A DNA stretch of 57,889 nucleotides. Source: Pelagibacteraceae bacterium. GTDB lineage: Bacteria > Pseudomonadota > Alphaproteobacteria > HIMB59. This document shows positions 39,351 through 57,547 of this stretch, piece by piece (position 1 is the first letter of the stretch; the number at the start of each line of letters is the position of its first letter). The stretch spans positions 1-57,889 of the forward strand of contig PAHR01000004.1 of the NCBI GenBank assembly GCA_002705265.1. The letters are read 5' to 3'. Under the pieces are notes generated by a model. The model made no database searches and had not been told where the DNA came from. It saw nothing but the letters and a program-made list of their open reading frames with translations. The position numbers and the translations under genes are program-made.

Positions 39351-39426
39351 GGGGGATTAGCTCAGCAGGGAGAGCGCTACGCTGGCAGTGTAGAGGTCAG
39401 GAGTTCGATCCTCCTATCCTCCACCA
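39351..39426 (+). tRNA. tRNA-Ala (anticodon GGC)
   Basis: A 76-base cloverleaf with encoded CCA. The acceptor arm GGGGGAT (39351-39357) pairs with ATCCTCC (39416-39422, one G-U), followed by A73 and CCA. The anticodon stem CTACG/TGTAG holds the loop CTGGCAG, giving anticodon GGC, which reads GCC and GCU. The T arm has GGTTCGATCC-type GTTCGATC. Confidence 0.97.
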
Positions 39427-39474: not shown

Positions 39475-39496
39475 AAAAGGGGCTCTGAAGAGCCCC
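39475..39496 (-). terminator. Rho-independent terminator of the 29-codon gene
   Basis: Read on the minus strand, GGGGCTC (39496-39490), loop TTCA and GAGCCCC (39485-39479) form a 7-bp GC-rich hairpin, followed directly by TTTT (39478-39475). It is one of the few GC-rich hairpins in the window and lies 35 bases after the stop of the minus-strand small gene. On the plus strand there is no U tract after the stem, so it is unlikely to serve tRNA-Ala. Confidence 0.72.
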
Positions 39497-39531
39497 CAAA
39501 ATATATAATAGAAGAAAAAATAATTTAAACG

Positions 39532-39621
39532 CTAGATTCTAGAACCAAGCCAACCAGCTACTAGCCAAATGGCCATAATTATAAAGGGATAATACCCCCC
39601 AAACATCATTAAATCACTCAT
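39532..39621 (-). CDS. 29-residue single-span membrane protein
   Basis: A 29-codon gene on the minus strand, too short for normal gene calling. The product begins MSDLMMFGGYYP and continues with one hydrophobic helix containing IIMAIWLVAGW, ending in GSRI. It is supported by a strong ribosome binding site (GAGGG 7 bases before the ATG, preceded by another AAGGA), and by its own intrinsic terminator 35 bases after the stop. It stands alone between tRNA-Ala and an unrecognised secreted protein gene. The function is unknown; its size and shape resemble small subunits or regulators that bind larger membrane complexes. Confidence 0.7.
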   Translation of the reverse strand: MSDLMMFGGYYPFIIMAIWLVAGWLGSRI

Positions 39622-39818
39622 ACTAATACCCTCGTTTCCTTATAGAATTATATATAATATGTAAATTATGCATATTAAATATTTAAATAAAAAAAATATA
39701 AAAAAAAATCAATATTTTAAAGGTTTTTTTTAATCAGGATTTATTAAGATATGTGTTATTTGCATTATATTTTTAATTAATCAAGTAATTCTACGAATCT
39801 AAATGTAAAAAAATACAT

Positions 39819-40403
39819 TTATTTATCAAGCAAGATTTTTATTAGGAGATTTAAATCAATTAAAAATTGATCTTCATTTATATTCGTATGTAGAAAATCA
39901 AAACACTTATTATTCTTAAAACCTTTATTTAAGTATTGATAAGGATCATCATAACTATTCCAACTTTTTGAAAATTCTTCGGCCGCTTCGAAATATGAAT
40001 CCAAAGAAGAACTAGTGCACTCATCACCAAATGCAGGACAATAATTTCCATGAGGATTATTCAAAATGAAGTTACTTATATAGGAATTTAATATAATAAT
40101 TTCAAAGTTTGGATAATTTGTTTTTTTAAAATTAGTTAAATCTTGATTATTAATATTAGTTAAAAACTGTCCTGATTTGGAATCATAATAAAAATTATAA
40201 TTTAAATTAATTGCTTCATCAAAATTTTCATTAAAAAAATCTTTTATATTTTCCCTGACAGATTCCTCTTCTATTGGATCCAACGTCCAATAAAGCTCTC
40301 CCAAATAACCTGCACAATAATCATTTAAGTCATTATCTATGATTGACTTCCCATAGACAATGTTTGTAAAAAATAAAAAAAATATTACCAGTAAAAATTT
40401 CAC
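39819..40403 (-). CDS. Secreted hypothetical protein
   Basis: A 194-aa protein I do not recognise. Residues 1-18 form a signal peptide ending in VYG, so the mature protein is periplasmic or secreted. The mature part is acidic and rich in Asn, Asp, Phe and Tyr. It has four cysteines after the signal: one in DYCAGYLGELYWTL near 29, two in YCPAFGDECTSS near 118-125 and one in KCFDF near 166, which could form two disulfides, in keeping with dsbB in this genome. It lies 31 bases after the 62-codon gene on the same strand. The 197 bases between it and the 29-codon gene are AT-rich (39622-39818), with no other gene that I see. Confidence 0.6.
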   Translation of the reverse strand: MKFLLVIFFLFFTNIVYGKSIIDNDLNDYCAGYLGELYWTLDPIEEESVRENIKDFFNENFDEAINLNYNFYYDSKSGQFLTNINNQDLTNFKKTNYPNFEIIILNSYISNFILNNPHGNYCPAFGDECTSSSLDSYFEAAEEFSKSWNSYDDPYQYLNKGFKNNKCFDFLHTNINEDQFLIDLNLLIKILLDK

Positions 40404-55268: not shown

Positions 55269-56579
55269 ATGAAAAAAATAATTTCATTAATATTATTGCC
55301 TTTTTTTGCATTAATGTTTTCAACTAACGTAAAAGCTGAATCATTAACTCTTGGTTGGGCCGCATGGGATCCAGCAAATGCTTTGGTAGAGCTAAGTAAA
55401 GAATTTACTGCAGAAACAGGTATTGAAATGAACTTTGAGTTCGTGGATTGGACTAGCTACGCTGACAGAATGCTTAACGAACTAAATAACAAAGGTAAGA
55501 CTTTTGACCTTTTAGTTGGAGATTCTCAGTGGATTGGTGGTGGCGCAGTAAACGGTCACTATGTTAAACTAAATGATTTCTTTGATAGAGAAGGCATTTC
55601 AATGAATGACTTTTCAGATGCTACTGTTTATGCGTATTCAACTTGGCCAAAAGGTTCAGAAAATTATTACGCTCTCCCTTTAATGGGTGATGCTTTAGCA
55701 TGGGCTTATAGAAAAGATTGGTTTGATAGACCTGAACTACAAAGCGAATTTAAATCTAAGCATGGTTATGATTTAGGCGTTCCTAAAACTTGGACTGAAT
55801 TGCATGATATGTGTAGTTTCTTTCAAGGAAGAGAAATTGATGGTGTAGTTCGTTATGGCGCAGCATTAAATACAGAAAGAGGTTCTGAAGGTATTACTAT
55901 GGGTGTAACTGCAGCTATGTATGCTTGGGGAATGGAATATGAGGATCCAAATAATCCTTATCATTCTGATGGCTTCTTTAATGCTCCTAATGTTGTTGAG
56001 GCAGTTGATTTCTACAAAAAAATGTATGAAGATTGCTCACCTCCAGGACACTCAAATGCCTATATGGGTGAAAACTTAGATGCGTATAGTTCAGGACAAG
56101 TTGCATTTCAAATGAACTGGTATGCTTTCTGGCCAGGTGTTGCCAAGGGAGATAAAGACGGAAGAGTTACAGGTTTCTTCGCAAACCCTTGTCAAGAAAT
56201 CTGTGCAGCTACACTTGGTGGCCAGGGAATATCTGTTGTAAATTATTCTGACAAAAAAGAATTAGCTCAGCAGTACATTAAGTGGTTTGCTAAACCAGAT
56301 ATTCAACAGAAATGGTGGGATCTTGGTGGATATTCATGTCATAAAGACGTACTAGGATCACCTGATTTTGTAAAGTCAGCTGTTTACGCTCAAGGCTTCT
56401 TAGACTCAATGGGAATTGTTAAAGACTTTTGGCAAGAACCATCATTTGTTGAGTTGTTAATACCTATGCAAGAAAATATGCATGACTATATAGTCAATGG
56501 CAAAGGTTCTGCTAAGGGAGCTCTAGATAATATTATCGAAGAGTGGGAAGAAGTATTTGAGTCTGAAGGTAAACTTTAA
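55269..56579 (+). CDS. Sugar ABC transporter periplasmic binding protein (CUT1 type)
   Basis: A 436-aa extracellular solute-binding protein of family 1 (maltose/oligosaccharide type). The ATG at 55269 has a near-perfect ribosome binding site, GGAGG 7 bases upstream, and gives a signal peptide of about 23 residues ending in VKA; an upstream ATG at 55197 would add a charged, unlikely extension. The mature part includes FDLLVGDSQWIGGG, YYALPLMGDALAWAYRKD and WYAFWPGVAKG. Family 1 proteins bind oligosaccharides or glycosides. It is divergent from the dehydrogenase pair and followed by a GC-rich hairpin and two permease genes. Confidence 0.92.
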   Translation: MKKIISLILLPFFALMFSTNVKAESLTLGWAAWDPANALVELSKEFTAETGIEMNFEFVDWTSYADRMLNELNNKGKTFDLLVGDSQWIGGGAVNGHYVKLNDFFDREGISMNDFSDATVYAYSTWPKGSENYYALPLMGDALAWAYRKDWFDRPELQSEFKSKHGYDLGVPKTWTELHDMCSFFQGREIDGVVRYGAALNTERGSEGITMGVTAAMYAWGMEYEDPNNPYHSDGFFNAPNVVEAVDFYKKMYEDCSPPGHSNAYMGENLDAYSSGQVAFQMNWYAFWPGVAKGDKDGRVTGFFANPCQEICAATLGGQGISVVNYSDKKELAQQYIKWFAKPDIQQKWWDLGGYSCHKDVLGSPDFVKSAVYAQGFLDSMGIVKDFWQEPSFVELLIPMQENMHDYIVNGKGSAKGALDNIIEEWEEVFESEGKL

Positions 56580-56600
56580 GACTTAATATTATATTAGTTT

Positions 56601-56621
56601 GGGCGGATGTAATATCCGCCC
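56601..56621 (+). other. GC-rich intercistronic hairpin after the binding-protein gene
   Basis: GGGCGGAT (56601-56608), loop GTAAT and ATCCGCCC (56614-56621) form a perfect 8-bp stem that stands out in this AT-rich DNA. It lies between the binding-protein stop and the permease start, with no U tract after it. Such hairpins often stabilise the binding-protein mRNA or cut down permease expression, giving the usual excess of binding protein. Confidence 0.65.
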
Positions 56622-56644
56622 ATCAAAATCTTATTTAAATTAAA

Positions 56645-57547
56645 ATGAAAAAATTAGTGATTAAAAGTAAGGGGCTGTCAGATAAAGCAATTGGGTGGCT
56701 ATTCATCGCCCCTACTATTATTTTGTTACTTTTAATCAATGTTTACCCTCTTATCTACGCGATAAGAATGTCCTTTACAAACTTTTATGCCAACAAACTT
56801 ACACAAGTTGTCAAAAATGTTGGTCTTAAAAACTATTACAAAATTTTAGGTAAAGAAGCTATTTGGGAAAAGATGCAAATTACTGCTCACTTTATGTTTT
56901 GGACTTTATCCCTTCAAATTATTATTGGTTTATCTCTTGCTCTTTTACTAAATAAAAAGTTTAAGGGAAATGAGCTTTTAACAACGACGATCGTGCTTCC
57001 AATGATGTTATCTCCTGCAGTGGTTGGAGTTTTTTGGGGTTATTTATATAACCCTCAAGTAGGTCTTTTTACCTATATAGTTAATTTTTTTTATGACTTT
57101 GGTTCATTTGATATGCTTGGTTCTGGCACTCTAGCTCCATGGGCAATAGTTATAGTTGATACATGGATGTGGACTCCTTTTACGATGCTAATTTGTTTAG
57201 CTGGACTAAGATCAATCCCTGGATATTTATACGAGGCAGCAGAAGTAGATCGAGCAAGTAAGTGGCAACAATTTGTGTACATTACACTGCCTTCTGTTTT
57301 ACCGTTTCTTTTGTTGGCTCTTTTATTTAGGGGAATAGAAAATTTTAAAATGTTTGACATGGTCATGGAATTGACTGGAGGCGGACCTGGATCTATGACT
57401 GAGTTAACATCGATGAATTTGAAAAGAGAGGCTTTTGAAAAATGGAAAACTGGTTATAGCTCAGCTTATGCAGTCATTTTATTTGTAACAATTTTTGGCT
57501 TTGGAAATGTTTATGTCAAAGTCATGAATAAGGTTAAGGATAGGTAA
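56645..57547 (+). CDS. Sugar ABC transporter permease, MalF/UgpA type
   Basis: A 300-aa membrane protein with six helices of the CUT1 permease type. The EAA-loop motif is YLYEAAEVDRASKWQQFVYITLP near 195-217, with the coupling-helix EAA...G pattern shifted to EAAEVD. FIAPTIILLLLINVYPLIYAIRMSF near 19-43 is the first helix with the usual MalF/UgpA start. GGPGSMTEL near 258 is also typical. It pairs with the next permease, whose ATG overlaps its stop (TAATG). Its ATPase is not in the window. Confidence 0.92.
   Translation: MKKLVIKSKGLSDKAIGWLFIAPTIILLLLINVYPLIYAIRMSFTNFYANKLTQVVKNVGLKNYYKILGKEAIWEKMQITAHFMFWTLSLQIIIGLSLALLLNKKFKGNELLTTTIVLPMMLSPAVVGVFWGYLYNPQVGLFTYIVNFFYDFGSFDMLGSGTLAPWAIVIVDTWMWTPFTMLICLAGLRSIPGYLYEAAEVDRASKWQQFVYITLPSVLPFLLLALLFRGIENFKMFDMVMELTGGGPGSMTELTSMNLKREAFEKWKTGYSSAYAVILFVTIFGFGNVYVKVMNKVKDR

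Follow-up and report, generated by a model that had tools for sequence, protein, structure and literature searches.

The window analyzed here is a 57.9-kb contig from a 1.34 Mb draft genome of a HIMB59-type alphaproteobacterium. Among its relatives are G029, assembled as one contig of 1,410,127 bp, a record named 'alpha proteobacterium HIMB59 isolate MED-G104' and single cells of uncultured Alphaproteobacteria. A minus-strand open reading frame (ORF) at 39532–39621 translates as MSDLMMFGGYYPFIIMAIWLVAGWLGSRI*, a product of 29 residues. The features of the locus, in the direction of transcription and followed by the convergent neighbor, are:

39657..39675, minus strand: palindromic operator ATATGCA-TAATT-TACATAT, with 0–1 mismatch at 39/39 homologue loci
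39647..39652, minus strand: TATAAT, a probable -10 element inferred from the sequence, 4 nt past the operator
39629..39633, minus strand: Shine-Dalgarno sequence GAGGG, 7 nt before the ATG, read from the sequence
39532..39621, minus strand: gene of a 29-residue single-span membrane protein, assigned from translation, homologues and pN/pS
39475..39497, minus strand: 3' stem-loop GGGGGCTCTTCAGAGCCCC followed by UUUU, the presumed transcript end, from the sequence and rare in the window
39351..39426, plus strand: tRNA-Ala(GGC), convergent and outside the unit, identified by ARAGORN and Rfam

An earlier note on this DNA had described the 29-residue minus-strand ORF, a hydrophobic helix within it and GAGGG 7 bases before its start, and all three are present. 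The Kyte-Doolittle hydropathy of the product reaches a maximum of 1.81 (19-residue window) over residues 4–22, consistent with a protein of fewer than 50 residues with one hydrophobic helix. Its acidic N-terminal and basic C-terminal ends suggest an N-out/C-in topology. Nine positions are invariant in eight representatives of the family (M1, G9, Y11, P12, F13, M16, W19, G23 and G26), and the motifs kept across the family are G-x-Y-P-F, M, W and G-x-x-G-[SA]. The start codon is preceded by a GAGG/GGAGG-type site in most homologues. The protein has no match in Pfam or NCBIfam, searches of PHROG and PDB gave no usable match (the single PDB match has an E-value of 3.2), and a literature search on HIMB59 and small proteins found nothing.

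A search profile built from the eight representatives identified homologues in 39 of the 52 genomes of the genus, including 9 of the 10 near-complete ones, with one copy per genome and product lengths of 25–29 residues. Between the window copy and its homologues, pS is 0.62–0.94 and pN 0.18–0.26 per site. The resulting pN/pS of about 0.26 is a value before saturation correction, and the synonymous differences are close to saturation. Judged from these values, the gene is under purifying selection. The earlier note would have given up the gene if it were not conserved at the protein level; it is conserved, with pN well under pS. Since homologues occur in 39/52 genomes and pN is about 0.2 against a pS of about 0.7–0.9, the ORF lies well beyond chance and is, on this comparison, a member of a 25–29 residue family rather than a singleton. 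We regard it as nearly certain, from these sequence comparisons, that the ORF is a real protein-coding gene, one of a genus-wide family of 25–29 residue proteins with one transmembrane helix.

The small gene is absent from one near-complete genome (G061) and from several partial ones. The rest of the order, including the sister family, contains no homologue aside from weak partial matches, and 386 sampled genomes of the class contain no convincing relative. Several candidates were rejected. The matches in L101 and L102 are short (E 0.007–0.008), and L102 has an internal stop; those in L028 and L063 look like chance matches; and a viral match (L100) lies antisense within a 404-residue ORF and is also attributed to chance. 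A contig titled as a Flavobacteriaceae MAG (L076) carries a HIMB59-type small gene with its usual neighbors and is probably misbinned.

The surroundings of the gene vary. Within the main clade it has a pncC/cinA-like gene on one side and an acyl-CoA synthetase or aminotransferase gene on the other, and in the window and G023 it is found elsewhere, adjoining an unrelated gene for a 194-residue protein. The latter product, at 39819–40403 upstream of the small gene in the window, is probably secreted, has a relative beside the small gene in G023 and matches neither Pfam nor NCBIfam at E 1e-5. The palindrome, the ribosome site and a GC-rich 3' stem-loop accompany the small gene across these differing neighborhoods. 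The proposal that the gene stands alone is thus borne out, with promoter region, ribosome site and stem-loop all retained, and the sequences compared support a real, free-standing gene that codes for protein and has a promoter region and 3' stem-loop of its own.

The GC-rich stem-loop at 39479–39497 begins 34 nt past the stop codon, with just four U after it on the minus strand. Perfect stems of 7 bp or more that include 5 or more GC pairs are rare in the 57.9-kb window, and this is one of only two. The other strong GC-rich stem-loop has a 9 bp stem and lies at 56600–56622, between a gene that ends at 56579 and another that begins at 56645. The plus-strand side, towards tRNA-Ala, has no T-run, and the stem-loop thus faces the small gene. 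Every homologue has a GC-rich stem-loop after its stop codon, with a sequence that varies by clade (GAGGGCAG..CTGCCCTC, GGGTGG..CCACCC, GAGGGTA..TACCCTC and GGGGCTC..GAGCCCC). Because most of these lack a U-run, we consider the element only a likely terminator. A consensus terminator scan did not list the stem-loop at 39479–39497, as four U are too few. What the earlier note called an intrinsic terminator is thus confirmed as a stem-loop where that note placed it.

The palindrome ATATGCA-N5-TGCATAT, with at most one mismatch, is found upstream of all 39 distinct genuine homologue loci, 49–70 nt before the codon of the G-x-YPF motif. The 52 genomes contain 85 such sites at 0–1 mismatch, compared with 2 for a reversed-pattern control (summed totals), and most of the 85 precede the small gene or lie some 25 nt ahead of a type III glutamine synthetase gene. 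TATAAT likewise lies 5 nt past the operator in G023 and, in G014, at the TRAP operon. In two genomes another palindrome resembling the operator lies 74 bp upstream of the first one (G009:C6:22007-22025 and G062:C2:51558-51576). Other explanations of the palindrome fare poorly. An RNA hairpin is disfavored by a C-A mismatch in the stem of the window copy; a generic promoter element is rejected, since the complete genome has just three intergenic sites; and a mark of methylamine use alone is rejected because the palindrome is retained at the small gene where glnT was not found. An operator-like sequence, ATTTGCAAACTTTGCATAT, from three genomes was discarded since it lies inside the conserved coding sequence of a transporter permease.

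Searches with two mismatches allowed in three genomes gave further sites inside coding genes, except for a convergent intergenic site in G000 and the glnK-amtB promoter site that surfaced in G017. The glnK-amtB site, TATTC-N7-GCATA, occurs in all 16 genomes checked, including that of the window, with or without the small gene. The relaxed core TATKC-N7-GCATA was chosen after this site had been seen, so that its specificity is partly post hoc; independent support for the putative operator is its conservation over the genus. The complete HIMB59-type genome, G029, has the exact relaxed core at 7 places, and just three of these are intergenic, namely those at glnK-amtB, at the small gene and at glnT. 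In the genome of the window there are 6 exact places, glnK-amtB being the sole intergenic one, and the small gene has the core with one mismatch. Between the operator and a -10-like element, the spacing seems not to be the same at glnK as at the small gene.

The glnT site is present in about 29 genomes. This gene, which encodes a type III glutamine synthetase of the glnT/gmaS family, runs divergently from a second amt and has glutamate-synthase-like genes nearby; the model matches for the co-targets are TIGR03105, above its cut-off, PF00909 and PF00543. The glnT promoters of the window's genome and of several other genomes have no operator, and in several genomes with the small gene and its operator no glnT was found. 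At L248 the glnT site was flagged as 'inside' by an artificially long ORF and is actually upstream of the likely start. In one genome glnT matched as two overlapping pieces with an in-frame TGA (G062:C3:64441-65525), which probably reflects an error in sequencing or a broken gene.

At 0–1 mismatch, the operator is also found in one genome each before TRAP, glycine betaine and sugar-type binding-protein genes. The positions are L174 2118–2136, before a TRAP binding-protein gene that is followed by a glutamine-synthetase-like gene; L176 2156–2174, before an OpuAC-type binding-protein gene; and L175 1917–1935, before a sugar-type binding-protein gene. Because single species carry the operator at such genes, the regulon may be broader than nitrogen and concern uptake generally. 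Since the operator is common to glnK-amtB and glnT, the small gene seems to belong to a very small regulon for nitrogen scavenging.

A candidate regulator can be named. NtrC-type nitrogen operators have the form TGCACC-N5-GGTGCA. The palindrome described here resembles them in being palindromic, in its TGC/GCA ends and in its location before nitrogen assimilation genes, and differs in that its half-sites are 4 bp closer (TGC-N7-GCA compared with TGC-N11-GCA). Each genome has two HTH_8 proteins: one, of about 415 residues and encoded beside a TrkA-like gene, is an NtrX-like response regulator, and the other is RegA-like. The HTH_8 family search found no NtrC in these genomes, and the NtrX-like protein is the only one of NtrC type. 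Its best match is the NtrX model, yet far under the curated cut-off. NtrX of SAR11 has been described as involved in regulating the nitrogen-limitation response (PMC13198564). NtrX possibly reads the palindrome and controls the regulon.

Combining these observations, we propose a mechanism in three steps. A real gene would encode a one-helix membrane protein of a genus-wide 25–29 residue family. Through an operator in common with glnK-amtB and, in most species, with the glnT that is divergent from the second amt, the protein would be co-produced with ammonium and amine scavenging, probably during nitrogen limitation, with NtrX as the suggested regulator. We consider this second step likely as a whole, the sites being seen directly and the common regulator being deduced from them. 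The helix, through its G-x-x-G-[SA] packing face and YPF motif, would then dock on a co-induced transporter, likeliest Amt, and tune or protect it, as MgtS, MgtR, MgtU and AcrZ do their partners. Docking on an Amt-type transporter with such an effect is a tentative proposal. The single helix with its small-residue packing face, the good ribosome site and the operator in common with ammonium uptake are what a small protein binding a co-produced transporter would be expected to show. Possible co-regulation with a transporter is indicated at the level of sequence, by the operator common to the small gene and glnK-amtB both in the genome of the window and in the complete HIMB59-type one. The small gene of the main clade also lies about 11–14 kb from glnK-amtB, which would be weak support at best for a link to Amt. 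The 'transport complex' idea of the earlier note is favored because the operator is common to ammonium-uptake genes. Taken together, a small membrane protein controlled by nitrogen status that tunes or protects a transporter, likeliest Amt, is the reading we prefer, with confidence a little short of even.

Proteins of this kind are known. MgtU, MgtR and MgtS (28–31 residues) and AcrZ (49 residues) act on transporters (PMC10710835). The three enterobacterial Mgt proteins are like the small protein in size, in their one membrane helix and in being produced with transporters under nutrient limitation (PMC10710835); they differ in sequence and in the nutrient, Mg2+, no homology is claimed, and the partner here is a proposed one. 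AcrZ is likewise a small single-helix protein lying along its transporter (PMC10710835), although it is longer and serves a drug efflux pump; again, no homology is claimed. In Methanosarcina mazei, sP36, also a small protein tied to ammonium transport and nitrogen status, binds AmtB1 and GlnK1 (PMC10714827). However, it is archaeal, has 61 residues, is dispersed in the cytoplasm in nitrogen limitation and is recruited to the membrane on upshift (PMC10714827), and no homology is claimed. The family described here would be a genus-restricted addition to the single-helix membrane proteins made with a nutrient response.

Among the alternatives, the most serious is that the conserved protein belongs to the same regulon and has another partner, such as an ABC or TRAP permease, NtrY, an FtsH-type protease or the lipid bilayer itself. 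The operators before transporter binding-protein genes in single species, and the retention of the small gene where the glnT/amt1 cluster was not found, are consistent with such a partner. However, the recurrent co-targets are the two amt loci, and the glnK-type amtB is found in most of the genus. We regard this alternative as a real possibility, on the doubtful side.

The earlier note had also suggested a subunit of a respiratory complex. Its size and single helix do resemble those of CydX-type subunits. However, no family model, CydX-type or other, matches the protein, no oxidase or other respiratory gene is near the small gene in any of the contexts seen, and the operator is shared with nitrogen genes instead; a small accessory subunit of a respiratory enzyme is improbable. 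A type I toxin of the TisB/Hok kind, silenced by antisense RNA, is suggested by TisB, itself a 29-residue membrane peptide. The single copy per genome throughout the genus, the strong ribosome site, the operator common to metabolic genes and the lack of an Rfam antitoxin match at the locus make this a shade more improbable still; the Rfam scan of the window found tRNAs only, and antitoxins outside Rfam would escape it. Finally, a leader peptide or RNA element in which coding is incidental would account for a short ORF followed by a stem-loop, but is scarcely credible given that the gene is followed by a convergent tRNA and about 5 kb without a same-strand gene of at least 100 residues in the window, that its amino acids are conserved though synonymous sites are near saturation, and that its neighbors vary between species.

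HIMB59-type bacteria are abundant, streamlined ocean plankton with few regulators, and that a 29-codon unit stays conserved in a genome of this kind suggests a function of value to the cell. The operator would define a concrete, testable nitrogen regulon, comprising glnK-amtB, glnT, the small gene and perhaps other uptake genes, in a group with almost no known regulation. The preferred reading would also offer a bacterial counterpart for comparison with the archaeal small protein that controls AmtB. Its strongest form, which we think unlikely as it stands, is that a genus-specific microprotein, controlled through a TATGC-N7-GCATA operator not described so far and probably recognized by NtrX, acts directly on Amt when nitrogen is scarce, gating or stabilizing it. 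If true, this would add an extra layer over PII control.
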